Source: Olsenella sp. An270 (GTDB lineage Bacteria; Actinomycetota; Coriobacteriia; Coriobacteriales; Atopobiaceae). From it: DNA of 64,000 bases. This document shows positions 17,927 through 55,631 of this stretch, piece by piece (positions within the stretch are counted from its first letter, which is position 1; each line of letters begins with the position of its first letter). The notes beneath the pieces were generated by a model. That model was not told the origin of the DNA. It saw only the letters and a program-made list of their open reading frames with translations, and made no database searches. The position numbers and the translations under genes were made by a program. The stretch lies in NCBI RefSeq assembly GCF_002159735.1, contig NZ_NFJF01000003.1:1-64000 (forward strand), read 5' to 3'.

Positions 17927-18050
17927 GGAACTCCAAACTCGGGGCTACTAAAGACGCGTCAAGTGTAGCGTTTCTCGCCACGTTCCGCCGTTCTTCTCGC
18001 CGAGTAGCGGCCCTTCTCGCCCGGCGTCAACCGCTTGCTGCGGCACTCGG

Positions 18051-18167
18051 CGTCGAGTGTACGAGATAGACGTTCCTGTGGCACATTGGGCTAACTTTTA
18101 TCTGGGGAAACGTTGGGTCCGTGTCTCGAAATAACGGGTGCCGGAGCGCTAACTCGTACACTCGGCG
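18051..18167. repeat. Intergenic element with inverted ends (kup-rlmKL)
   Basis: CGAGTGTACGAGATAG at 18054-18069 is inverted as CTAACTCGTACACTCG at 18149-18164 (one mismatch), bracketing about 80 AT-richer bases. GTTCTTCTCGCC flanks the left side (17990) and its complement GGCGAGAAGAAC the right (18202). The layout resembles a small non-autonomous mobile element or a regulatory hairpin. Together with flanks it fills the 346-base gap between divergent kup and rlmKL; both promoters must also lie here, but no convincing -35/-10 pair was found. Confidence 0.5.
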
Positions 18168-18272
18168 CGGGATGCGCTCGCCCGTCGCGAAACGGGCGCG
18201 GGCGAGAAGAACGCCGGCTCGCCGTTCGTGCGAGAATGGCGGGGTAGGTTGCGACGGGCGAAAGGTGACCCG

Positions 18273-22406: not shown

Positions 22407-22429
22407 GCATGCGAACTTGGCTCAAGCGT

Positions 22430-22652
22430 GCATAAAACGGTCCCTCGTGCTACATAAAAGGGCTCCGGAAGGTCAAAAAGGGGATTCGTGTAGCGTAGTT
22501 TTAGCCAAATTGCTCAAACAAGTTTCTTTATATATGTAGTTATCTGGCCTTTTGTAACGAGCCTACTCACAGAACCCTGGAAAAGACGCTACACGAATCG
22601 ACGTTTTATGCAGCGAAGAGGCCCGAATGTAGCACGAGACGCGGTTTTATGC
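22430..22652. repeat. 223-bp element with 67-bp imperfect inverted arms
   Basis: The left arm (22430-22498) and the right arm (22586-22652) are imperfect inverted copies. Both contain GCATAAAAC at the outer end, CTCGTGCTACAT 15 bases further in, and GATTCGTGTAGCGT at the inner end. Between them lie about 87 AT-rich bases (TTATATATGTAG). No open reading frame is present. The layout is that of a miniature inverted-repeat element or a large foldback. It fills most of the 332-base gap between two convergent genes. Confidence 0.65.
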
Positions 22653-22683
22653 GTCCAATCCTTTGGTGGCAGCCCCTTGAGCG

Positions 22684-26091: not shown

Positions 26092-26208
26092 GAGCCCTCC
26101 TGAAACGGGATGTAACGCCACAATCGCATCACATTATACTATGCTAGTTTGCTATGCCGCCGCCCGTGGGCGGTTCAGAGAGACGTAGACCTTATGGAGG
26201 ACAGCGCA

Positions 26209-27426
26209 ATGCTCCCAGTCGACGAGCAACTCAAGGTGATCACCTCCGGCACGATGCAGATCGTGCCGCTCGACGAGCTCAAGAAGAAGCTCGAGAAGGG
26301 CACGCCGCTCAACATCAAGCTGGGCGTGGACCCCACCTCTCCCGACCTGCACCTCGGCCACGCCGTGCCCCTGCGCAAGATGCGCCAGTTCCAGGACCTG
26401 GGCCACAACGTGACGCTCATCATCGGCAACGGCACCGCCCTCATCGGCGACCCGTCCGGCCGCGACTCCACCCGCCCGCCCCTCACCGAGGAGCAGGTCG
26501 AGGCCAACGCCAAGACCTACGTCGAGCAGGCCATGAAGGTGCTCGACCCCGAGAAGACCCAGATCGTCCACAACGGCGACTGGCTGAAGGGCCTGAACCT
26601 CGCCGAGATGCTCAAGCTCATGAGCCAGTTCAACGTGGCCCGCATCCTCGAGCGCGAGGACTTCCACAACCGCTACACCGAGGGCAAGTCCATCGCCCTG
26701 CACGAGTTCATCTACCCGGTGCTGCAGGCCTACGACTCCGTCGTGGTGAAGGCGGACCTCGAGATGGGCGGCAACGACCAGATCTTTAACCTGCTCGCCG
26801 GCCGCGACCTCATGCGCGCCATGGGCATGGAGCCGCAGGTGGCCCTCACGATGCCGCTTCTGGTGGGCACCGACGGCCACAAGAAGATGTCCAAGAGCTA
26901 CGGCAACTACGTGGGCCTCACCGACGAGCCGGCCGACATGTACGGCAAGGTCATGTCCATCACCGACGAGCTGGTGCCGCTCTACTGGCGCCTCTGCTCC
27001 ACGGCCGACATGGACAAGCTCGACGCCATCGACGCCGCCTTCGCGGACGGCACCGCCGACCCGTACGCGCTCAAGCGCGAGCTGGCTGCCAACATCGTGG
27101 ACCTCTACCACGGAGAGGGCGCCGGCGCCGCGGCGAGCGCCGCCTTCGACGCGCAGTTCAAGCGCGCCGAGGCCCCCGAGGACATGCCGGAGTTCCCCGT
27201 GAGCGTGGTCGAGGTCAACGACGAGGGCAAGGTCTACCTGGGCAAGCTCCTCGTCGAGGTGGGCATCGCCAAGTCCGCCGGCGAGGCACGTCGCCTCGTG
27301 GACGGCGGCGGCGTCAAGATCAACGGCGAGGCCGTGGCGCCCAAGTGCTACAACGTCGAGGCGTCGCTCTTCTCGGCTGGTACGACGGTCCAGTCCGGCA
27401 AGAAGCGCTGGGCGCGCCTGGTCTAG
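26209..27426 (+). CDS. tyrS: Tyrosyl-tRNA synthetase
   Basis: The 405-residue enzyme charges tRNA-Tyr. It has the class I HIGH-like motif (PDLHLGHAVPLRKM), the KMSKS motif (HKKMSKSYGNYVG), and a C-terminal S4 RNA-binding domain (GKLLVEVGIAKSAGEARRLVDGGGVKING). The TyrZ-like signature LGVDPTSPDLHLGH groups it with the shorter TyrRS form. The start ATG at 26209 is preceded by GGAGG at eight bases; an in-frame ATG at 26194 lacks that spacing. A TATACT (about 26136) lies in the shared region with the PBP gene. Confidence 0.95.
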   Translation: MLPVDEQLKVITSGTMQIVPLDELKKKLEKGTPLNIKLGVDPTSPDLHLGHAVPLRKMRQFQDLGHNVTLIIGNGTALIGDPSGRDSTRPPLTEEQVEANAKTYVEQAMKVLDPEKTQIVHNGDWLKGLNLAEMLKLMSQFNVARILEREDFHNRYTEGKSIALHEFIYPVLQAYDSVVVKADLEMGGNDQIFNLLAGRDLMRAMGMEPQVALTMPLLVGTDGHKKMSKSYGNYVGLTDEPADMYGKVMSITDELVPLYWRLCSTADMDKLDAIDAAFADGTADPYALKRELAANIVDLYHGEGAGAAASAAFDAQFKRAEAPEDMPEFPVSVVEVNDEGKVYLGKLLVEVGIAKSAGEARRLVDGGGVKINGEAVAPKCYNVEASLFSAGTTVQSGKKRWARLV

Positions 27427-27439
27427 CCCCCTCTTCCCC

Positions 27440-27639
27440 GGTTTGGGTTCACGGCATGCGGCCCGCGCGTCGCATCGGTGAGCACCACCTGGGGATTTGC
27501 GAGGAGGCGGCGCCGCGTGACCCTTTTGGTGAACCCAAACCACTTTTCGGTTTGGGTTCACTGCTGTTATAGGGGAGTTCGGGGACCTGCGGTTTTGTCG
27601 CGATATACTTCGCAGGGAGCAAAACCGTGAACCCAAACC
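27440..27639. promoter_or_regulatory. Four alternating copies of GGTTTGGGTTCAC before the U32 gene
   Basis: The 13-mer GGTTTGGGTTCAC occurs forward at 27440-27452 and 27549-27561 and inverted (GTGAACCCAAACC) at 27529-27541 and 27627-27639. The second and third copies are seven bases apart and form a perfect 13-bp hairpin. The fourth lies between a TATACT -10 (27604-27609) and the ribosome-binding site of the U32 gene. It could be an operator array for an unknown regulator, a set of RNA hairpins, or the ends of two small mobile elements. Confidence 0.6.
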
Positions 27640-27659: not shown

Positions 27660-30185
27660 ATGGCGAGAAGAACCACGTTCCTGGAGGCGCACGGCGTTCC
27701 GGAGCTGCTGGCGCCTGCCGGCGGCCCGGAGCCGTTCAACGCGGCGCTCGCCGCGGGCGCCGACGCCATCTACTGCGGCCTGGGCAACGACTTCAACGCC
27801 CGTCGCGGCGCCAAGAACTTCGACGACGAGTCCTTCGCGGCGGCATGTCGCCGCGCGCACCTCGCGGGCGCGCGCGTCTACGTGACCGTCAACGTGGCCA
27901 TCTCGACCGAAGAGCTACCGCGCGTGCTGGAGCTGGTACGCCGTGCGTGGCGGCTGGGGGCCGACGCCTTCATCATCCAGGACTGGGGCCTCATGGCCGA
28001 GGTCCGCCGCCGGTGGCCGGAGGTGGAGACGCACGTCTCAACGCAGGCCAACGTCCACGACGCGCGCGGCGTGGCGTGGTGCCGCGACGTCTGGGGCGTG
28101 GACCGCGTGACGCTCTCGCGCGAACTCTCGCTGGCAGAGATCTCCCGCATCGCCGAGGAGGGCGTGGAGCTGGAGTGCTTCGGCCACGGCGCGCTCTGCT
28201 TCTGCTACTCGGGCGTGTGCCTCATGAGCTCGATGAACGGCGGGCGCTCGGCCAACCGCGGCCTCTGTGCGCAGCCGTGCCGGCTGCCCTACGACCTCGT
28301 CGACGAGGACGGCAACGTGATGGAGATCCCCGGCGTGGCAACGCAGGGGATCCCCGAGACGAGCCGCGGCGTGGGCGGGACGCGCCTGCTCTGCCCCAAG
28401 GACTACCGCACGGTCGATCGCGTGCGCGAGATGCACGACGCGGGCGTGGGCTCCCTCAAGGTCGAGGGCCGCATGAAGGCCCCCGACTACGTGTTCTCCG
28501 TCGTGGCGGCCTACCGCGACGCCCTCGACGCGCTGCGCGACGGCAGCGACGACGACGCCGCGCGCGCGAGGCGGGATCGACGCCTGCGCCGCGCGTTCAA
28601 CCGCGACTTCACCGAGAGCTACCTCTGGGGCGGCTCCGACAACGACATGATGAGCTACGAACGCTCCAACAACCGCGGTGAGCTAGTCGGACGCGTCACG
28701 GGCTCGCGAGCCCTCGAGGACGCGGTCGTGCGGCGCGGCGGCGGCAACGGCGGCCGCGAACGCATGCGGCGCCTCACCCGCGCCGACGTGGAGGTTCTTC
28801 TCGACCAGCCGGTGGGTGCCGGCGACCTGCTGGAGATCCGCCCGCCCTCCGACCCCTCCCAGTTCCTGACCGCCCACGCCGAGGCGGACGCCGCGGCGGG
28901 GGAGACCATCACCTGCCGGACGTCGCGTCCCATGGAGGAGGGGTCGCTCGTGCGCGTGATCCGCTCGCAGGCGGCGCTCGACGAGGCGGCGCGGGTGGCC
29001 GACAAGGACGTGGTGCGTCGGCGTCCGGTGCGGGTGCGCGTGACGGCTCGCCTGGGGGAGCCGTTCTCGGTTGAGCTCGAGACCCTCGACGGCGCCGCGG
29101 CGGCGCGTGCCGAGGGCTTCGTCGTGGAGGCCGCGCGCACGCGTCCGGTCACCGAGGAGGACCTCGTCGAGCACGTGGGACGCATGGGCCAGAGCCCGTT
29201 TGCTCCCATGGAGTGGGACGTCGCGCTGGACGCAGGCTGCGGCATGTCCTTCTCGGCCGTGCACAAGGTGCGCGCCGAGGCGTGCCGTCTCCTGGAGGAG
29301 TCCCTGCTCGCGCCCTATGCCGACCGTGAGCTCTCTGCTGGGGAGCCCGACCATACACACCTGTCGGTTTTCACCCCAAACGACCCCCAAAACACCCAGG
29401 TGTGCGTGGTCGTGACGACGCCGGCGTGCGCCGAGGCCGCGCTCGCCGCCGGCGCGACGCGCATCTACGCCTCCGCCGACGACCTCGCTCGGGGCTCGTG
29501 GCCGTCCGGCGTGATCCCCTGGCTCGACGAGGTCTGCCGCGAGGCCGACCACGCCCGCCTGGACCCGTGGGTGCGCGCCGGCGAGCCCGTGGCGGTGGGC
29601 AACGTCTCCGAGCTCGCCCTCGCCGTCAGCCGCGGCGCGGCCCCCGAGGTCCGCTCCTGCGTCCCGGTTCACAACGCGTCCGCCCTCGCGGCGCTGACCG
29701 AGGCGGGCGCGGCCGGCGTCTGGCTCTCGCCGGAGCTCACGCTCGAGGAGGTCTGTGCCCTCGCCCGCACGTCCCGCGTGCCCGTGGGCCTCTCGGTCCT
29801 GGGTCGCGAGCGCGTGATGACGAGCGAGCACTGCGTCCTGCAGGCGCTCGGCCGCTGCCGCCACGACTGCGCCCGCTGCCCCGAGCGCGCCCGCGCCCTC
29901 TCCCTACGCGACATCGACGGCAACCTCCTGCCCGTCCGCACGGACGTCAACGGCCGCTCGCGCATCTGGTGCGCCCGCCCGCTCGACGCGACGCCGCAGG
30001 TCGGTGAGCTGGTCGAGGCCGGAGTGACCCGCCTGCTCGTGGACGGCCAGCTCATGACCGCCCCCGAGGTCGGCGAGGCCGTGACCCGCGTGGTCCGGGC
30101 CCTCGAGGCCGTCCGCGACGGCCGCCGCCCTGCGCCGCGCATGAAGGGGGCCACGTCGGGTCATCTCTTCTCGCCCATTGGGTAA
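27660..30185 (+). CDS. Peptidase U32 family protein, long form
   Basis: The 841-residue protein has a complete U32 domain (about 10-340). Signs are ELLAPAGGPEPFNAALAAGADAIYCGL, THVSTQANVHD, the family signature ELECFGHGALCFCYSGVCLMSSMNGGRSANRGLCAQPCRLPY with its Cys set, and LKVEGRMKAPDYV. The C-terminal part includes further Cys residues (CRHDCARCP). U32 proteins were named for a collagenase; several members (RlhA, TrhP/TrhO types) modify RNA and need prephenate or iron, so RNA hydroxylation is a real alternative. The ATG at 27660 has GGAAGGAAGAG upstream; an in-frame ATG-like extension to 27627 lies inside the repeat array and is less likely. Confidence 0.88.
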   Translation: MARRTTFLEAHGVPELLAPAGGPEPFNAALAAGADAIYCGLGNDFNARRGAKNFDDESFAAACRRAHLAGARVYVTVNVAISTEELPRVLELVRRAWRLGADAFIIQDWGLMAEVRRRWPEVETHVSTQANVHDARGVAWCRDVWGVDRVTLSRELSLAEISRIAEEGVELECFGHGALCFCYSGVCLMSSMNGGRSANRGLCAQPCRLPYDLVDEDGNVMEIPGVATQGIPETSRGVGGTRLLCPKDYRTVDRVREMHDAGVGSLKVEGRMKAPDYVFSVVAAYRDALDALRDGSDDDAARARRDRRLRRAFNRDFTESYLWGGSDNDMMSYERSNNRGELVGRVTGSRALEDAVVRRGGGNGGRERMRRLTRADVEVLLDQPVGAGDLLEIRPPSDPSQFLTAHAEADAAAGETITCRTSRPMEEGSLVRVIRSQAALDEAARVADKDVVRRRPVRVRVTARLGEPFSVELETLDGAAAARAEGFVVEAARTRPVTEEDLVEHVGRMGQSPFAPMEWDVALDAGCGMSFSAVHKVRAEACRLLEESLLAPYADRELSAGEPDHTHLSVFTPNDPQNTQVCVVVTTPACAEAALAAGATRIYASADDLARGSWPSGVIPWLDEVCREADHARLDPWVRAGEPVAVGNVSELALAVSRGAAPEVRSCVPVHNASALAALTEAGAAGVWLSPELTLEEVCALARTSRVPVGLSVLGRERVMTSEHCVLQALGRCRHDCARCPERARALSLRDIDGNLLPVRTDVNGRSRIWCARPLDATPQVGELVEAGVTRLLVDGQLMTAPEVGEAVTRVVRALEAVRDGRRPAPRMKGATSGHLFSPIG

Positions 30186-32657: not shown

Positions 32658-32809
32658 CTGCCTTCAAAACCGACTTGTGAATAGATTTTGGGAGTGAAGG
32701 GATTCCGCGCGGTCTCTCGGCGCAAGAAGTCCCAGTTGAAATTCGTCAGGCGGGGCCTCCTTGTGGCAGGCCAAACGGAAAACTGTTCATAAGTCGGTCT
32801 AGAAGGCAG
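32658..32809. mobile_element. 152-bp MITE-like element, copy 1
   Basis: The ends read CTGCCTTCAAAACCGACTT and, inverted, CTGCCTTCTAGACCGACTT, and pairing continues toward TGAATAG (here GTGAATAG/ATGAACAG). The interior has no gene. A second copy of exactly the same length and the same ends is at 53742-53893, about 70-75 percent identical inside. The size, inverted ends and two unlinked copies fit a non-autonomous mobile element. It occupies much of the 381-base gap 32529-32909, together with the promoter of the next gene. Confidence 0.8.
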
Positions 32810-47586: not shown

Positions 47587-48933
47587 TTACAATTGCTCAT
47601 CAAGAATGCCCGGAAAGGCATTGGCGGCGTAGAGCGGTACGTTTACCAGCCAGTCCTGCTCCTTCAGCCCGCGGAGCGAGAAGCGCACGGCACGCTCGAG
47701 CCCATAGTCGCGTACGAACGCGGCGAGACTTCCCCCGGCGATGTTCTCGTCTGCCTTGGCCTCAATGGGGATGGGGCGTCCCGCAACCTCGAGCAGGAAG
47801 TCGACCTCGCCCTTTTTCTGCTTGCCGTCTGCCGACCAGTAATACGGCACCAGGCCGCCCGCCACGAGCTGCTGGCACACGAACTGCTCGGCATAGACTC
47901 CCTTGTACTCGGTAAAGAGACGGTCCCCCTCCACGAGCACGCGTGGCTCAAGTCCTGTTGCCGCGCCCAAGAGCCCGACGTCGAGCAGGTAGAGCTTGAA
48001 GTACGTCTCGTCGGAGTACCCTTTGAGCGGGAGTCCAGGCTTGGTCACGCGAGGGACCTTTGTGACCAGGCCCGCATCGACAAGCCATGCGACGGCATCC
48101 CGATAGTCGCGTCCGCGCCCGCCCTCCCGGACGGAGGCGTAGCTGAACCGTCGAAGGTCGCTCTCCCGCGCAAGCTGGATGGGCACCGACCTCCACGTCT
48201 GGCGGATTCGCTCTACTTCCGCAGAGCTTTCAACGTGCTTGGAGAAGTCGTGCTCGTAGTCCGCGAGCAGCGCCCGCTGCACCGCCCGCGCCGCCGCAAA
48301 GTCCCCGGTCTCACTGTAGCGCTTCGCTGCCTCGGGCATGCCTCCCACGTAGTAATAGGCGCGCAGGAGATCGGTCAGGCGCTCGGAGAAGACGCTGATG
48401 AGATCGGCGTCGCCCTGGGAGAGCGCATCCGCAAGCGCCGGGTTGCCAACCTCGCGCACGAACTCGTCAAACGAGAGAGGGTGCAGGTCAAGATAGTCGA
48501 CCTTCCCAACGGGCCATGACGTGCCGGTGCCGTCCCTCCCGCGTTTACGGCTGAGGGCCACGCCAAGAAGGGATCCCGCCGCGACCACGGGCACGTCGGG
48601 GCGCTGCTCGCAGAACATCTTGAGGGCGGTGATGGCGCGCGGGCACTCCTGGATCTCATCGAGGAATACCAGCGTCCTGCCGTCGCGGGGATTCGTCCCC
48701 GTTGCCGCGCCAATGATAGTGAGCAGGCGCTCCGAATCAAGGCTTCCCTCGAAGGCCCGCTTCATGTCCTCGTTGTCCAGGAACACGACATGGGCCACGG
48801 AATCGTAGCGGTCTTCTCCGAACGCGAGGACAAGCCACGTCTTTCCCACCTGACGGGCACCGTTGACGATGAGCGGCTTGCGACTGGGGCTGTCGCTCCA
48901 CGAGAGGAGTTTTGCCATGGCGTTGCGATACAT
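47587..48933 (-). CDS. AAA ATPase with DUF4143 C-terminal domain
   Basis: The 448-residue protein has an AAA_14 ATPase: Walker A NGARQVGKTWL (about 25-35), Walker B TLVFLDEIQECP, then a DUF4143 domain with YLLDVGLLGA, YAEQFVCQQL and the nuclease-like GEVDFLLEVAGRPIPIEAKAD. These proteins are frequent in gut bacteria and Archaea; their role is unknown, and some may be mobile or defence-related. The start ATG at 48933 has GAGG eight bases upstream; three tandem repeats lie directly before it. It sits between an intact and a decayed toxin-antitoxin pair, an accessory context. Confidence 0.88.
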   Translation of the reverse strand: MYRNAMAKLLSWSDSPSRKPLIVNGARQVGKTWLVLAFGEDRYDSVAHVVFLDNEDMKRAFEGSLDSERLLTIIGAATGTNPRDGRTLVFLDEIQECPRAITALKMFCEQRPDVPVVAAGSLLGVALSRKRGRDGTGTSWPVGKVDYLDLHPLSFDEFVREVGNPALADALSQGDADLISVFSERLTDLLRAYYYVGGMPEAAKRYSETGDFAAARAVQRALLADYEHDFSKHVESSAEVERIRQTWRSVPIQLARESDLRRFSYASVREGGRGRDYRDAVAWLVDAGLVTKVPRVTKPGLPLKGYSDETYFKLYLLDVGLLGAATGLEPRVLVEGDRLFTEYKGVYAEQFVCQQLVAGGLVPYYWSADGKQKKGEVDFLLEVAGRPIPIEAKADENIAGGSLAAFVRDYGLERAVRFSLRGLKEQDWLVNVPLYAANAFPGILDEQL

Positions 48934-48942
48934 TCCCGACCT

Positions 48943-49040
48943 CATTTCTGGCGGAAACCGACTTCGGTATCGACCATATTTTGGCGGAAACCGATTTCGG
49001 CATCAACCATTTTATGGCGGAAACCGAAGTCGGCATCCGC
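48943..49040. repeat. Three tandem 32-33 bp repeats upstream of the DUF4143 gene
   Basis: Units at 48943-48974, 48975-49007 and 49008-49040 each contain TGGCGGAAACCGA followed by TCGG and TATC or CATC, so each holds a small dyad (ACCGA..TCGGT or a variant). They start ten bases before the ATPase ATG and so may bind a regulator or form its leader. They could also be a minisatellite left by mobile element activity. Confidence 0.7.
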
Positions 49041-49045
49041 CAACG

Positions 49046-52159: not shown

Positions 52160-52909
52160 ATGGGAGGGCGAGGGTCCAAAGGGGGCGCGCGGGGCGACGG
52201 CCGCCGCGTCTATCGGCGTGAGCCGGGCGACTGGCTCTGGGCGAACCGCGCGTTCTGGACCGTCGCGCTTCTCGCCCTGTCCGTGCTGCTCTCGGCGTTT
52301 CGGTTCGTGACGCTTCCACAGGGCGGCTCGGTCACGTTCCTGAGCCTGCTGCCGCTGTGGCTCGTCACGTACTTCTACGGCCCGCGCCATGGCTGCGTGG
52401 CCGGCGCGGTCTTCGGGTTCACCCGACTTGCGGTCATCTTCGGCGTGGGCGAGTGGGTGAACTTCTCGCCGGGCGCCATCGTGCTCGAGTACCCGGTCGC
52501 GTGCGGGGCCGTGGCGGTGGGAGGCCTGCTCCTGCGCGGGTTCGGGCCGAGGCGCGGCCGCGAGTGCGGTTGCGGGCGCGGGGTGGGGCGTGGAAGCGGC
52601 GCCCGTGACGAGGGCGAGGAAGACGATGACGTTAGGGGCGACGTGCTCGTCCTTCGTGTGGGCTACCTCGTCGGCGTGCTCGCGATGGGGGTGTGCTACG
52701 TCGTCTCGGCGCTGCTCTTCTACCCGCCCGAGGCCGAGGGCCTGCTTCCCAACCTCCTCGCGTGCGTCGCGTACGACATGAGCTACCTCCTCATCGAGGC
52801 GGTGCTCACCGAGCTGCTCCTGTTGCTGCCGCCCATGCTTGACGCCATACTCTACCTGCGCTTTGTTGCCACCACCGAGAAGGGCGACCCCACCCTCCGC
52901 TCGTTCTGA
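52160..52909 (+). CDS. ThiT-like ECF transporter substrate-binding component
   Basis: The 249-residue membrane protein has six helices and the pattern SLLPLWLVTYFYGPRHGCVAGAVFGFTRL and later GYLVGVLAMGVCYVVSALLFY. This matches the thiamine-specific S component ThiT (PF09515), which works with the ECF energy-coupling module. An insert of about 45 residues rich in Arg, Gly, Cys and acidic residues (about 133-170) is unusual and may loop into the cytoplasm. No TPP riboswitch is visible before the operon, which is odd for a thiamine transporter. ATG at 52160 is used, with GGGGG before it; a GTG lies two codons upstream. Confidence 0.65.
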   Translation: MGGRGSKGGARGDGRRVYRREPGDWLWANRAFWTVALLALSVLLSAFRFVTLPQGGSVTFLSLLPLWLVTYFYGPRHGCVAGAVFGFTRLAVIFGVGEWVNFSPGAIVLEYPVACGAVAVGGLLLRGFGPRRGRECGCGRGVGRGSGARDEGEEDDDVRGDVLVLRVGYLVGVLAMGVCYVVSALLFYPPEAEGLLPNLLACVAYDMSYLLIEAVLTELLLLLPPMLDAILYLRFVATTEKGDPTLRSF

Positions 52910-52921
52910 CTCGCGAGCGGC

Positions 52922-53009
52922 AGGCGTGTGACAAAGTGACAAAGGGGACGGAGGCTTTTGTCACACCGGAGGCGTGTGACAAAAGCCTCCGTCCCCTCTG
53001 TCACACGCC
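52922..53009. repeat. Long palindrome, 31-bp arms, GGGGACGGAGG type
   Basis: The arms 52936-52966 and 52974-53004 are inverted copies with one mismatch, carrying GTGACAAA/GGGGACGGAGGC and TTTTGTCACAC. It lies between two convergent genes and may terminate both as well as being a mobile palindrome. Confidence 0.75.
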
Positions 53010-53029
53010 CCCGTCCTACGGGTTCGGCA

Positions 53030-53590
53030 TCACATTCCGGCTTGGTCGAGGAAGCGCCGCACGAGGTAGGTCGTGATCGCCGAGCGGGAGGCGATTCCCA
53101 CCACCTGGCCGTCGGAGACCACGGGGATCTTCTTCACGTCCGACTCGCTAAGGAGCCGGCAGATGTCCTCGAACGAGGTGCTGACCGGGATGGTGACGGG
53201 GTGGTCGGACCCCACGTCGAGGGCCAGCTGGTCCATGATTGACGTCAGCCTCGCCTCGAACTTCGAGCCGCTCTCGCGGAGGCAGTCCAACAGGAGTGCG
53301 GGCGCCCCGACCGCCGGCACGTTGTGCCCCACGGACCTCAGGTAGCGCATGACGTCCCCGTCGCTCAGGTAGCCCACGACGGCGCCCTCGGGGGAGACGA
53401 TGGGCGCTCCGCTGATCTTCCTCTCTGCGAAGTACGCGAGGGCCTCGCGGACGGTCGCGTTTGCAGGCAGCATGAAGACGTCGCGCTCCATGTACTTGGC
53501 GAGGGACGCCTCGTCGGCGGGCGCCTCGTCGGCAAGGGCGCGCTGACGCTGGTAGTAGCCCTCGGTGTAGGCGACGTAGATGACGCCGCG
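53030..53590 (-). CDS. Tandem CBS-domain protein, 5' end uncertain
   Basis: The reading frame contains two CBS domains: YMERDVFMLPANATVREALAYFAERKISGAPIVSPEGAVVGYLSDGDVMRYL and PVTIPVSTSFEDICRLLSESDVKKIPVVSDGQVVGIASRSAI. CBS pairs bind adenosyl ligands and regulate enzymes or channels. The first 28 residues (VIYVAYTEGYYQRQRALADE) have no start codon in a good context. Upstream the frame runs into a repeat (53590-53644), so the original start may have been lost. ATG at 53491 would give the smallest product with both domains. The family of the parent protein was not recognised. Confidence 0.6.
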   Translation of the reverse strand, partial: RGVIYVAYTEGYYQRQRALADEAPADEASLAKYMERDVFMLPANATVREALAYFAERKISGAPIVSPEGAVVGYLSDGDVMRYLRSVGHNVPAVGAPALLLDCLRESGSKFEARLTSIMDQLALDVGSDHPVTIPVSTSFEDICRLLSESDVKKIPVVSDGQVVGIASRSAITTYLVRRFLDQAGM

Positions 53591-53644
53591 GTGGGCGACA
53601 CCGGGCCCCGCAGAGCCATGTCGTGCTGTCAAATGTTCCTTACA
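53590..53644. repeat. Repeat with GTGGGCGACACCGGGCCCC, copy 2
   Basis: The first 21 bases are identical to 47513-47533, followed by a diverged portion and GCTGTCAAA. It abuts the 5' end of the CBS gene and may have replaced its start. Confidence 0.55.
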
Positions 53645-53741
53645 TGGTTGCTGATCTGCGTATATGCACTGCAACGCATTGAACGCCGAATTAGCTCAGC
53701 GTCGTGCCGTGAGCTGGGTTTGCGACTGATTTTGGAATGAC

Positions 53742-53893
53742 CTGCCTTCAAAACCGACTTCTGAATAGATTTCTGGAGCGAGAAAGCTCTGCGTGGCTCG
53801 TTGGCGAAAGAAGCCCCAGTTGAGATTCGTCTCATGGAGCCCCTTCGGGATATGCCGCGTAGAAAACTATTCAGAAGTCGGTCTAGAAGGCAG
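53742..53893. mobile_element. 152-bp MITE-like element, copy 2
   Basis: The same length as copy 1 at 32658, with ends CTGCCTTCAAAACCGACTTC and its inverted counterpart GAAGTCGGTCTAGAAGGCAG; the inverted ends pair for about 30 bases (TGAATAGATTT against AAACTATTCA). The flank on both copies reads AAGTC after the right end. It sits 124 bases before prfC, with no gene inside. The 53594-54017 gap holds this element, the repeat at 53590 and the prfC promoter. Confidence 0.82.
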
Positions 53894-53977
53894 AAGTCCC
53901 TCTAGTTACTGCGTCGAACTTCGTTGACTGCGCGCTTTTGGGCAAGGCAGTGGGCTAGCTACCACGTGCGCATCCGC

Positions 53978-53983
53978 TACAAT
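53978..53983 (+). promoter_or_regulatory. Likely -10 of prfC (TACAAT)
   Basis: TACAAT lies 35 bases before the prfC start; the -35 is weak. TACAAT also occurs before other genes here (4947, 9626). Confidence 0.4.
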
Positions 53984-54017
53984 AGCTGGGCTCAAACGTC
54001 TGCAACGGAGGAAACGC

Positions 54018-55631
54018 ATGCCAAGCCTTGAGGAGGAGATCTCTTCTCGCCGCACCTTTGCCATCATCTCGCACCCGGACGCGGGCAAGACCACGCTCAC
54101 GGAGAAGCTCCTGCTCTACACCGGCACCATCCAGAGCGCCGGCTCGGTCAAGGGCAAGGCCAGCGCCAAGCACGCGGTCTCCGACTGGATGGACATCGAG
54201 AAGGCGCGCGGCATCTCCGTCACGTCCTCCGTGCTGCAGTTCACCTACGAGGGCCACTGCGTGAACATCCTGGACACCCCCGGCCACCAGGACTTCTCCG
54301 AGGACACCTACCGCACGCTCATGGCCGCGGACTCCGCCGTCATGGTGATCGACGGCGCCAAGGGCGTGGAGGCCCAGACCGTCAAGCTCTTCAAGGTGTG
54401 CGCGCTGCGCGGCATCCCTATCTTCACCTTTGTGAACAAGCTCGACCACGAGACGCGCGACCCCTTTGACCTCATGGAGGAGATCGAGAACGTCCTGGGC
54501 ATCGGGACGTACCCCATGAACTGGCCCATCGGCAACGGGCGCACGTTCCGCGGCGTCTTTGACCGCGCGAGCCGCCACGTGCTCGCCTTCGAGGGCGACG
54601 GCCGCGCCAACGCCACCAAGCGCGTGGCCGAGGTGGAGGCGGAGCTCGGCGACGCCGCCCTCGACGAGCTCATCGGCGAGGAGAACCACCGCACCCTCAT
54701 GGACGACATCGAGCTTCTCGACGGCGCGGACCACGAGTTCGACCTCGAGGCCGTGCGCACGGGCAAGCTCACGCCGGTCTTCTTTGGCTCGGCGCTCACC
54801 AACTTTGGCGTGGAGCCGTTCCTGCGCGACTTCCTGCGCATGGCGCCCGCTCCGGGCCCGCACACGGACGCCCTCACGGGCGAGGAGGTCCCCGCGACCG
54901 ACCCGTCCTTCTCGGGCTTTGTCTTCAAGATCCAGGCCAACATGGACAAGAACCACCGCGACCGCGTGGCGTTTTTGCGCGTGTGCTCGGGGCGCTTCGA
55001 GCGCGGCATGGACGCCTACCACGTGCAGGGCGACCGCAAGATCAAGCTGGCCACGGGCACGGCGATGATGGCCGACGACCGCGCTACGGTGGACGAGGCG
55101 TGTGCCGGCGACATCGTGGGCCTCTTCGACCCGGGGATCTTCTCGATCGGCGACACGCTCTGCGTGCCCGGCCGGCGCGTGCGCTACGCCGGCATCCCCA
55201 CCTTCGCGCCGGAGCACTTCGCGCGCGTCTCGCAGGTGGACACGCTCAAGCGCAAGCAGTTCGTGAAGGGCATGGAGGAGCTCGCCCAGGAGGGCGCCAT
55301 CCAGATCTTCCGCGAGCTGGGCGCCGGCATGGAGAGCGTGATCGTGGGAGTGGTGGGCGTGCTGCAGTTCGAGGTGCTCGAGCAGCGCCTCAAGAGCGAG
55401 TACCACGTGGACGTCTACCGGCAGGCGCTGCCCTACACCGAGGTCCGCTGGATCGACAACTCGCCCGACGAGCTGGACGTGCGCTCGCTCAACCTCACAC
55501 GCGACACCCTGCGCGTCGAGGACATGCGCGGCGGGCGCCTGCTCCTGTTCACGAGCCCGTGGAACCTGGACTGGGCCACGGAGCGCAACCCCGACCTGCG
55601 GCTCTCCGAGTTTGGCAACGTGACGTTCTAG
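54018..55631 (+). CDS. prfC: Peptide chain release factor 3
   Basis: The 537-residue GTPase has the G1 loop SHPDAGKTT, the switch region ARGISVTSSVLQF, DTPGHQDF, and NKLD. Length and the RF3 hallmark AIISHPDAGKTTLTEKLLL and WPIGNGRTFRGVFDR agree with the family. RF3 recycles RF1 and RF2 from the ribosome after termination. A GGAGG site precedes the ATG. The stop TAG (55629-55631) is shared on the other strand with the stop of the convergent AraC gene and touches a palindromic repeat. Confidence 0.96.
   Translation: MPSLEEEISSRRTFAIISHPDAGKTTLTEKLLLYTGTIQSAGSVKGKASAKHAVSDWMDIEKARGISVTSSVLQFTYEGHCVNILDTPGHQDFSEDTYRTLMAADSAVMVIDGAKGVEAQTVKLFKVCALRGIPIFTFVNKLDHETRDPFDLMEEIENVLGIGTYPMNWPIGNGRTFRGVFDRASRHVLAFEGDGRANATKRVAEVEAELGDAALDELIGEENHRTLMDDIELLDGADHEFDLEAVRTGKLTPVFFGSALTNFGVEPFLRDFLRMAPAPGPHTDALTGEEVPATDPSFSGFVFKIQANMDKNHRDRVAFLRVCSGRFERGMDAYHVQGDRKIKLATGTAMMADDRATVDEACAGDIVGLFDPGIFSIGDTLCVPGRRVRYAGIPTFAPEHFARVSQVDTLKRKQFVKGMEELAQEGAIQIFRELGAGMESVIVGVVGVLQFEVLEQRLKSEYHVDVYRQALPYTEVRWIDNSPDELDVRSLNLTRDTLRVEDMRGGRLLLFTSPWNLDWATERNPDLRLSEFGNVTF

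Follow-up and report, generated by a model that had tools for sequence, protein, structure and literature searches.

The window, by which we mean the whole 64,000-nucleotide stretch of Olsenella sp. An270 analyzed here (contig NZ_NFJF01000003.1), carries tyrS (PF00579; positions 26149 to 27426, plus strand) and, downstream on the same strand, a gene of the U32 peptidase family (PF01136; 27660 to 30185, with its ATG at 27660). When the whole window was scanned, exactly four copies of GGTTTGGGTTCAC were found, at 27440 (+), 27529 (-), 27549 (+), and 27627 (-), all between these two genes; with 2 mismatches allowed, none of 100 dinucleotide shuffles reached four copies (mean, 0.57; largest, 2). 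The first-pass annotation of this DNA had described perfect 13-mers of alternating orientation, the middle pair of which forms a hairpin, and both descriptions are confirmed; the inner pair gives a 13-bp stem without mismatches, closed by a 7-nt loop. It had also placed the last copy between the -10 box and the ribosome-binding site of the U32 gene. The position holds, in that by eye the fourth 13-mer lies between a -10-like TATACT (27604 to 27609, plus strand) and the U32 ribosome-binding region, but the promoter is unsupported: a sigma-70 scan called none at this site, and TATACT is a resemblance only. No terminator was called there either. G and L numbers are used here as genome and locus labels, G000 being the genome studied (2.01 Mb, 98.6% complete); TATACT is present in G000, G023, and G024 and absent in G004.

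What appears as four repeats is a pair of tandem elements, each contributing two arms, from a dispersed arm-core-arm family that is constrained at the level of DNA. Element 1 (27440 to 27541, plus strand; 102 bp) belongs to the family that we call F1 (GGTTTGGGTTC) and begins 13 bp after the tyrS stop codon. Its inverted arms of 11 to 13 bp, exact matches at 27440 to 27452 (+) and 27529 to 27541 (-), surround the core CCACCTGGGGATTTG (27485 to 27499, +), which lies 45 bp from the left end and 42 bp from the right and scores 17.6 bits. A 7-bp A/T-rich linker, ACTTTTC (27542 to 27548), joins it to element 2 (27549 to 27639, plus strand), which at 91 bp is about one helical turn shorter. The arms of element 2 are likewise exact, at 27549 to 27561 (+) and, upstream of the U32 start, at 27627 to 27639 (-), and its core GGACCTGCGGTTTTG (27583 to 27597, +) lies 34 bp from the left end and 42 bp from the right and scores 17.4 bits; the TATACT lies inside element 2. 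The annotation's suggestion of two small foldback elements was therefore correct in form: both are members, placed in tandem, of an inverted-repeat family that is dispersed.

A genome-wide search found 11 exact matches to the 13-mer (reversed control, 0). The first 11 bp of the repeat, which we call the F1 end, have 49 exact copies in the genome (reversed control, 0), and these fall into 20 clusters, the tyrS-U32 cluster included; 36 of the 49 make up 18 exact inverted pairs, 57 to 101 bp apart. Inverted F1 dyads (arm, 4 to 12 bp, arm) were found in 9 of 31 genus genomes, and a scan of a species-level genome collection for the dyad returned 84 stretches, 76 of which come from Thermophilibacter gallinarum (12 of them from the cultured strain DSM 107455), "Olsenella," "Atopobium," and other Atopobiaceae assemblies and from one assembly labeled Collinsella. 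The other eight come from unrelated organisms; the seven whose spacing was listed have arms 4, 5, 6, 10, 10, 11, and 11 bp apart and look like chance matches. Among F1 dyads, a 7-bp linker is found in 44 of 65. Viral contigs gave no match to the dyad pattern.

Across the related genomes, the spacing of F1 pairs is quantized in steps of about 10.5 bp. Measured from start to start, 160 units running from a plus end to a minus end are 57 to 58, 68, 79 to 81, 90 to 92, 100 to 102, or 111 to 113 bp long, the exceptions being 84 and 194 bp; the count took in the eight outsider records, and eight dyads are spaced other than 18, 19, 37, or 38. Keeping units of 60 to 130 bp and removing same-length units more than 70% alike left 125 non-redundant unit lengths, for which the Rayleigh R is 0.907 at 10.6 bp; the largest value among 5000 smooth-length nulls was 0.273. 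For an oriented core, approximately TTACCTGCGGTTTTG, 120 of these 125 units give a score above 4 bits, a figure that is partly circular because the motif was learned from the same F1 units. Of the 120, 97 have the core at 42 bp from one end, and 112 have it at 44 to 45 or 54 to 55 bp from the other. Since the motif was trained on F1, the real tests of the core are the reversed-sequence control and independent families: a core above 10 bits occurs in 56 of 72 F1 inverted repeats versus 1 of 72 reversed, and in 16 of 76 non-F1 inverted repeats versus 2 of 76 reversed. Outside the arms and the core, F1 interiors hold low position-wise information.

Arms, core, and whole-turn spacing are preserved among copies and orthologues while the remaining sequence changes. 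The outer arms at exact dyads, which were not selected for, give the less biased view: among 169 sides of 86 dyads (orthologous dyads from different genomes being counted apart), 132 outer arms are exact, 10 are one mismatch off, and 27 are unrecognizable, with 3 or more mismatches, whereas a random-place control gave 3 to 6 mismatches in 82 of 84. The 142 good outer arms sit at quantized distances. Between orthologous units of the same length, identity is 99.7% in the arms (2282/2288), a value biased upward because both members needed recognizable arms, 82% in the core (1257/1530), and 65% in the rest (4828/7460); in 48 of 104 comparisons, the rest of the unit is at or below a rounded identity of 0.5. 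Orthologue lengths differ by 0 bp in 104 comparisons, 1 bp in 15, 7 bp in 2, 10 bp in 12, 11 bp in 1, 20 bp in 1, 21 bp in 5, 32 bp in 1, and 33 bp in 1, these pairwise counts not being independent events; 21 of the 23 changes of 2 bp or more are thus of 10 to 11, 20 to 21, or 32 to 33 bp, and the other two are of 7 bp. The eight outside-group records were left out of the outer-arm and orthologue counts, as they were of the family-overlap, context, and core-orientation counts given below.

The U32 gene was found in all 31 genus genomes, and the region upstream of it was compared in 30. An arm-core-arm element occupies this gap in 15 of the 30, G000 included, and in 11 of these the end sequence is different. 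Tandem GGTTTGGG elements are present in G000, G023, G024, and G004; G010, G045, G001, G022, G011, G017, G043, G003, G009, G019, and G040 carry another inverted repeat with a core of at least 7 bits. Weaker cases are G014, whose arms are nearly identical to those of G040 (core, 0.1 bits), and G002 (core, 5.0 bits). The gap is without such an element in 13 genomes, 3 of which have almost no gap, and several of these 13 gaps hold coreless inverted repeats. At the covered U32 loci, the reversed control scored below the core except in G009 (core, 8.3 versus 10.7) and G014 (0.1 versus 1.3). Among other genera of the family, 1 of 23 U32 loci has an inverted repeat with a core score above 10.

The core model, trained on F1, also finds cores in F2, F4, F8, and F6, families that were not in the training set. 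The F2 arm has 64, 62, and 35 half-sites in G010, G001, and G045, respectively, and 0 to 2 in the other 28 genomes; its core lies at 55/42 bp from the two ends in 27 of 30 non-redundant 112-bp units, the same as in one F1 class (this profile leaves out pairs with a spacing other than 98, most of which are cross-pairings within tandem arrays). The F4 arm, with one mismatch allowed, has 13, 15, and 11 matches in G022, G011, and G017 and 0 to 1 in the other 28 genomes, with one control match, in G040; its core lies at 32/29 to 30 in 12 of 13 units. G000 itself carries at least two arm families besides F1, namely, F8 and F6. F8 has 36 half-sites in G000 (reversed control, 1), 22 in G024, and 0 in G023, the control reaching 4 elsewhere, and its 29 units are spaced 87 to 88, 97 to 99, or 108 bp, plus one of 80 and one of 156 that look like mispairings. 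The core is recognized in 17 of the 29 (reversed control, 1/29), 16 of which have it at 43/51, 53/51, or 43/41 and one at 25/51. The other 12 F8 units are without a recognized core; units with the usual arms, similar spacing, and a different-looking center were seen at L303, L305, L352, L357, L358, L360, L365, L366, L311, and L367, and a motif search in the coreless units gave no convincing second core. F6 has 23 half-sites in G000 with two mismatches allowed, and its core lies at 58 to 59/56 to 57 in 18 of 19 units, against a high control of 6/19.

Several of these elements lie in the window itself. An F8 (GAGTGTACGAG) element of the same core class lies upstream of a K+ transporter gene (18050 to 18168, plus strand), and a related element (22483 to 22599, plus strand) has the arms GATTCGTGTAGCGT, a further arm type, around the core TTATCTGGCCTTTTG. 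Iteron-like or nested elements, in which repeated arm copies flank one core, were seen at window positions 22424 to 22659, at L093 (3842 to 3988), and at L091 (1790 to 1998). F6 (AACCGACTTnTGAA) elements lie at 32659 to 32808, with the core on the minus strand, and at 53743 to 53892 (minus strand), upstream of prfC (RF3). The surroundings of the latter (52252 to 55272) are 96 to 99% identical to five genus genomes over 1.9 to 3.1 kb, the other copies being at L326, L327, L328, L329, and L334 and the element differing by single bases at most; this near-identity suggests recent transfer of the entire block. Three imperfect copies of TGGCGGAAACCGACTTCGG were also noted at 48949 to 49042, just past the start of a minus-strand open reading frame (47587 to 48945). 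An approximately 27-bp sequence, GTGCAAAGGGGACAGTCACTTTTGCAC, occurs as an inverted pair within coding sequence at L164 and L169 (about 3190) and at L177, inside the U32 gene.

Overlap between families by position is small outside the U32 gap, which is itself the gap chosen for inspection. Gaps that hold different families in different species are the coaX gap and L131/L264 (F1 and F2 in both), L312 (F8 versus F1), L380 (F6 versus F2), and L376 (F6 versus another arm type). Gene context was judged from the calls of a simple codon model, for which the window was the training set, rather than from an annotation pipeline. Apart from 11 F1 clusters that these calls place within genes and 7 at locus edges, F1 clusters lie in 45 tandem, 29 convergent, and 10 divergent gaps; the corresponding background numbers, for gaps of at least 80 bp whether or not they hold an element, are 129, 58, and 58. 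The excess of convergent over divergent gaps, 29:10 versus 58:58, has a P value of 0.009. The median distance from element to gene end is 24 bp at stop codons (n = 150) and 107.5 bp at start codons (n = 82). In tandem F1 doublets, orthologous doublets being counted apart, the cores face each other in 3 and face apart in 19 (P = 0.0009), and both point in one direction in 37.

We considered whether the arms base-pair in RNA, so that the transcript would contain a terminator, an attenuator, or a leader switch; the last had been proposed in the first-pass annotation. In favor, the 239-nt transcript of this region folds strongly (z, -5.2), as expected of an inverted repeat; inspection by eye shows a terminator-like hairpin overlapping a few copies, and the location at 3' ends suits such a role. 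However, the fixed orientation with respect to transcription expected of a structured RNA or riboswitch was not seen: where the flanking genes run the same way, 34 F1 cores follow the direction of transcription and 41 oppose it (P = 0.49), and with F1, F2, and F4 pooled the counts are 40 and 49. Since core orientation ignores transcription, the constraint acts on DNA. The spacing, moreover, tracks the helical repeat of B-DNA, and within a genome the arms share one sequence, where pairing would require only that they be complementary. Rfam gave no family over threshold, its only match being a sub-threshold snoRNA inside tyrS; the lack of a terminator call at U32 points the same way. F1 arms are also found inside the linker-coding part of dnaX in G000 (L011; PF13177 and PF12169), and similar arm-bearing sequence, assigned to dnaX by likeness to L011, is present in G024, G023, and G004 (L028, L075, and L091). 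There the dyad's left arm is translated as EPKP in G000, G024, and G023, which have an 8-bp linker, and as RTQT in G004, which has a 7-bp linker; the arm DNA is identical despite the differing reading frames, and the G004 frame is the called open frame and continues like that of the other three genomes. A role in RNA structure is, in our judgment, very unlikely, and the leader-switch proposal is not upheld. Still less likely, to the point of being hardly credible, is an operator array dedicated to the U32 gene, even though half of the genus genomes compared have an element in this gap and three species have the -10-like box inside element 2. G000 has 19 further clusters, the neighboring genes share no common theme by eye at the 15 other G000 sites read, and 13 of the 30 genomes have no such element at U32, 3 of them having almost no gap; these observations rule out U32-specific regulation as the main reading. 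The annotation's operator array with looping was right in spirit, because the inverted sites share one helical face around a core, but not as regulation of U32. It had also held that many scattered copies with no conserved place before U32 genes would favor a mobile repeat over regulation: the copies are indeed many and dispersed, but the place at U32 is also occupied in half of the genomes compared. Its interpretation as a whole is partly supported.

A more serious alternative is that these are selfish REPIN- or MITE-like miniature elements, each arm family moved in trans by its own transposase, with the core as a host-factor site for transposition and with copies that gather in 3' intergenic space. 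F2 is expanded in three genomes, F8 is absent from G023, some orthologous gaps are short and without the element, and solo arms occur where a relative has the whole element (L384 and L381), all of which indicates that copies are gained and lost; tandem arrays occur as well. On the other side, interiors are unrelated within a genome while the arms are exact, a pattern that copying by itself would not produce and that would be unexpected of recent copies, or of old ones in the absence of selection. Target-site duplications are not consistently present, and G000 has no Y1/RAYT transposase, although 28 of the 31 genus genomes have one. Alignments of occupied with short gaps were in most cases too poor for a clean insertion point to be placed. 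A parent insertion sequence with these ends did not come to light in the loci read, where the one gene seen between two F1 clusters matches no Pfam or NCBIfam family. We regard selfish elements as unlikely, though well short of negligible.

Comparison with known systems bears on the same question. REPINs have two inverted conserved ends as a unit, are intergenic, form several families per genome and tandem clusters, and show a few preferred end-to-end distances (PMC3116915). The paired inverted ends are seen here (160 units, with the outer arms exact in 132 of 169), but matches to PF01797 (Y1) in G000 number 0, the ends are without a REP hairpin (the arm alone is unfolded, and arm plus flank folds weakly, at -4.1 and -5.2 kcal/mol in two window stretches), and a GTAG or GTGG tag occurs in the first 30 nt of only 8 of 125 units, one end and strand being checked. 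Spacing by helical turns and an oriented core common to families with unrelated ends set the elements apart as well, and mobilization by a RAYT is unsupported for G000, which has no Y1 transposase gene. A second dispersed motif, approximately GGCGAGAAGAACG or CGTTCTTCTCGCC and often in hairpins by eye, was seen at window positions 27660 to 27675, at L016, and at L163; motifs of the GGCGAGAAGAACG type and the Y1 transposases of the genus may be one REP/RAYT system. Compared with MITEs, the flanks lack a target-site duplication (direct-repeat identity is within 1.2 SD above the null at 3 to 5 bp, below the null at 6 to 8 bp, and about 2.2 to 2.3 SD above it at 9 to 10 bp only), and a copied interior is not seen, since 125 of 160 units were left after the length and similarity filters.

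BIME or RIP (REP-IHF-REP) elements and Correia-like elements with an IHF site (PMC2229807 for the latter) resemble the present ones in their inverted ends and central protein site, their length of about 100 bp, and their place at gene 3' ends. The position near 3' ends is shared with BIME/RIP, but the IHF consensus WATCAANNNNTTR is matched by a single unit of the 125 (shuffled sequence predicts 0.25), TCAANNNNTTR being found in 5 of 125 (2.0 expected), and in contrast to both kinds, interiors here are unrelated and end sequences are replaced between species. In the gal repressosome (GalR-HU) and P1 parS (ParB boxes with an IHF bend), inverted sites are bridged over an architectural-protein site in a manner sensitive to helical phase, and arm specificity can differ between relatives; these, however, are single loci of known role, whereas here there are dozens of scattered chromosomal copies and the proteins are putative. 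The specificity of stoperators also differs between relatives, and to our knowledge, these sites occur in phage genomes with no paired arms, no core, and no helical quantization. Mycobacteriophage stoperators are described as many scattered asymmetric sites for one protein that can stop transcription (PMC9283540 and PMC6550527). Membership in the REPIN/RAYT, MITE, and REP-IHF-REP classes thus each fails on at least one tested feature; the elements are not U32 specific and give no sign of an RNA switch. Literature searches on Olsenella, Thermophilibacter, and Atopobium repeats gave nothing on these elements among the matches listed, the titles listed for their sequence strings look unrelated, and the matches listed for helical periodicity of repeat families held only an unrelated genome paper.

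We consider it probable that the elements are binding sites of a looped or wrapped nucleoprotein complex made of putative proteins. One sequence-specific protein per arm family would bind both arms, a second, more conserved protein would bind and perhaps bend the core, and together they would draw the DNA into a small loop or wrap, closed on one helical face. Such a complex may serve, at gene ends, as a local insulator, a roadblock terminator, or a chromosome-structuring site, a role that the position near 3' ends suggests. A 344-amino-acid gene between two F1 clusters (G000:C7:369463-370747; L052, 1526 to 2560, minus strand) has no Pfam or NCBIfam match and is, by its place, a possible recognizer of the elements; in G001, the genes of a stretch dense in F2 copies (L278) look housekeeping-like by eye, with no evident recognizer among them. 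Counting against a phased complex, families come and go and some orthologous gaps are short and empty, which suits mobile elements as well; further points against it are the coreless F8 units, the high F6 control, and the unrecognizable outer arms.

It is possible, though on balance doubtful, that the elements, scattered in dozens of copies per genome, represent a novel type of chromosomal nucleoprotein site whose arms are exchangeable: a core of one class would be read by a conserved protein, and the arms would be read by fast-evolving proteins and replaced as whole families between species. If so, several families would stand side by side in one genome, all held to the same helical face, and species would change the recognition code of a DNA-folding or boundary system that spans the chromosome but leave its geometry intact. 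It is easy to dismiss dispersed palindromic repeats as selfish debris; here, arms, core, and helical phase are visibly maintained locus by locus while the rest drifts, and the sequences thus give evidence that a DNA-protein architecture is at work at many gene ends. With arms wholly different between sister species and the same core class and geometry, the coevolution of proteins and their sites would be testable in close relatives.
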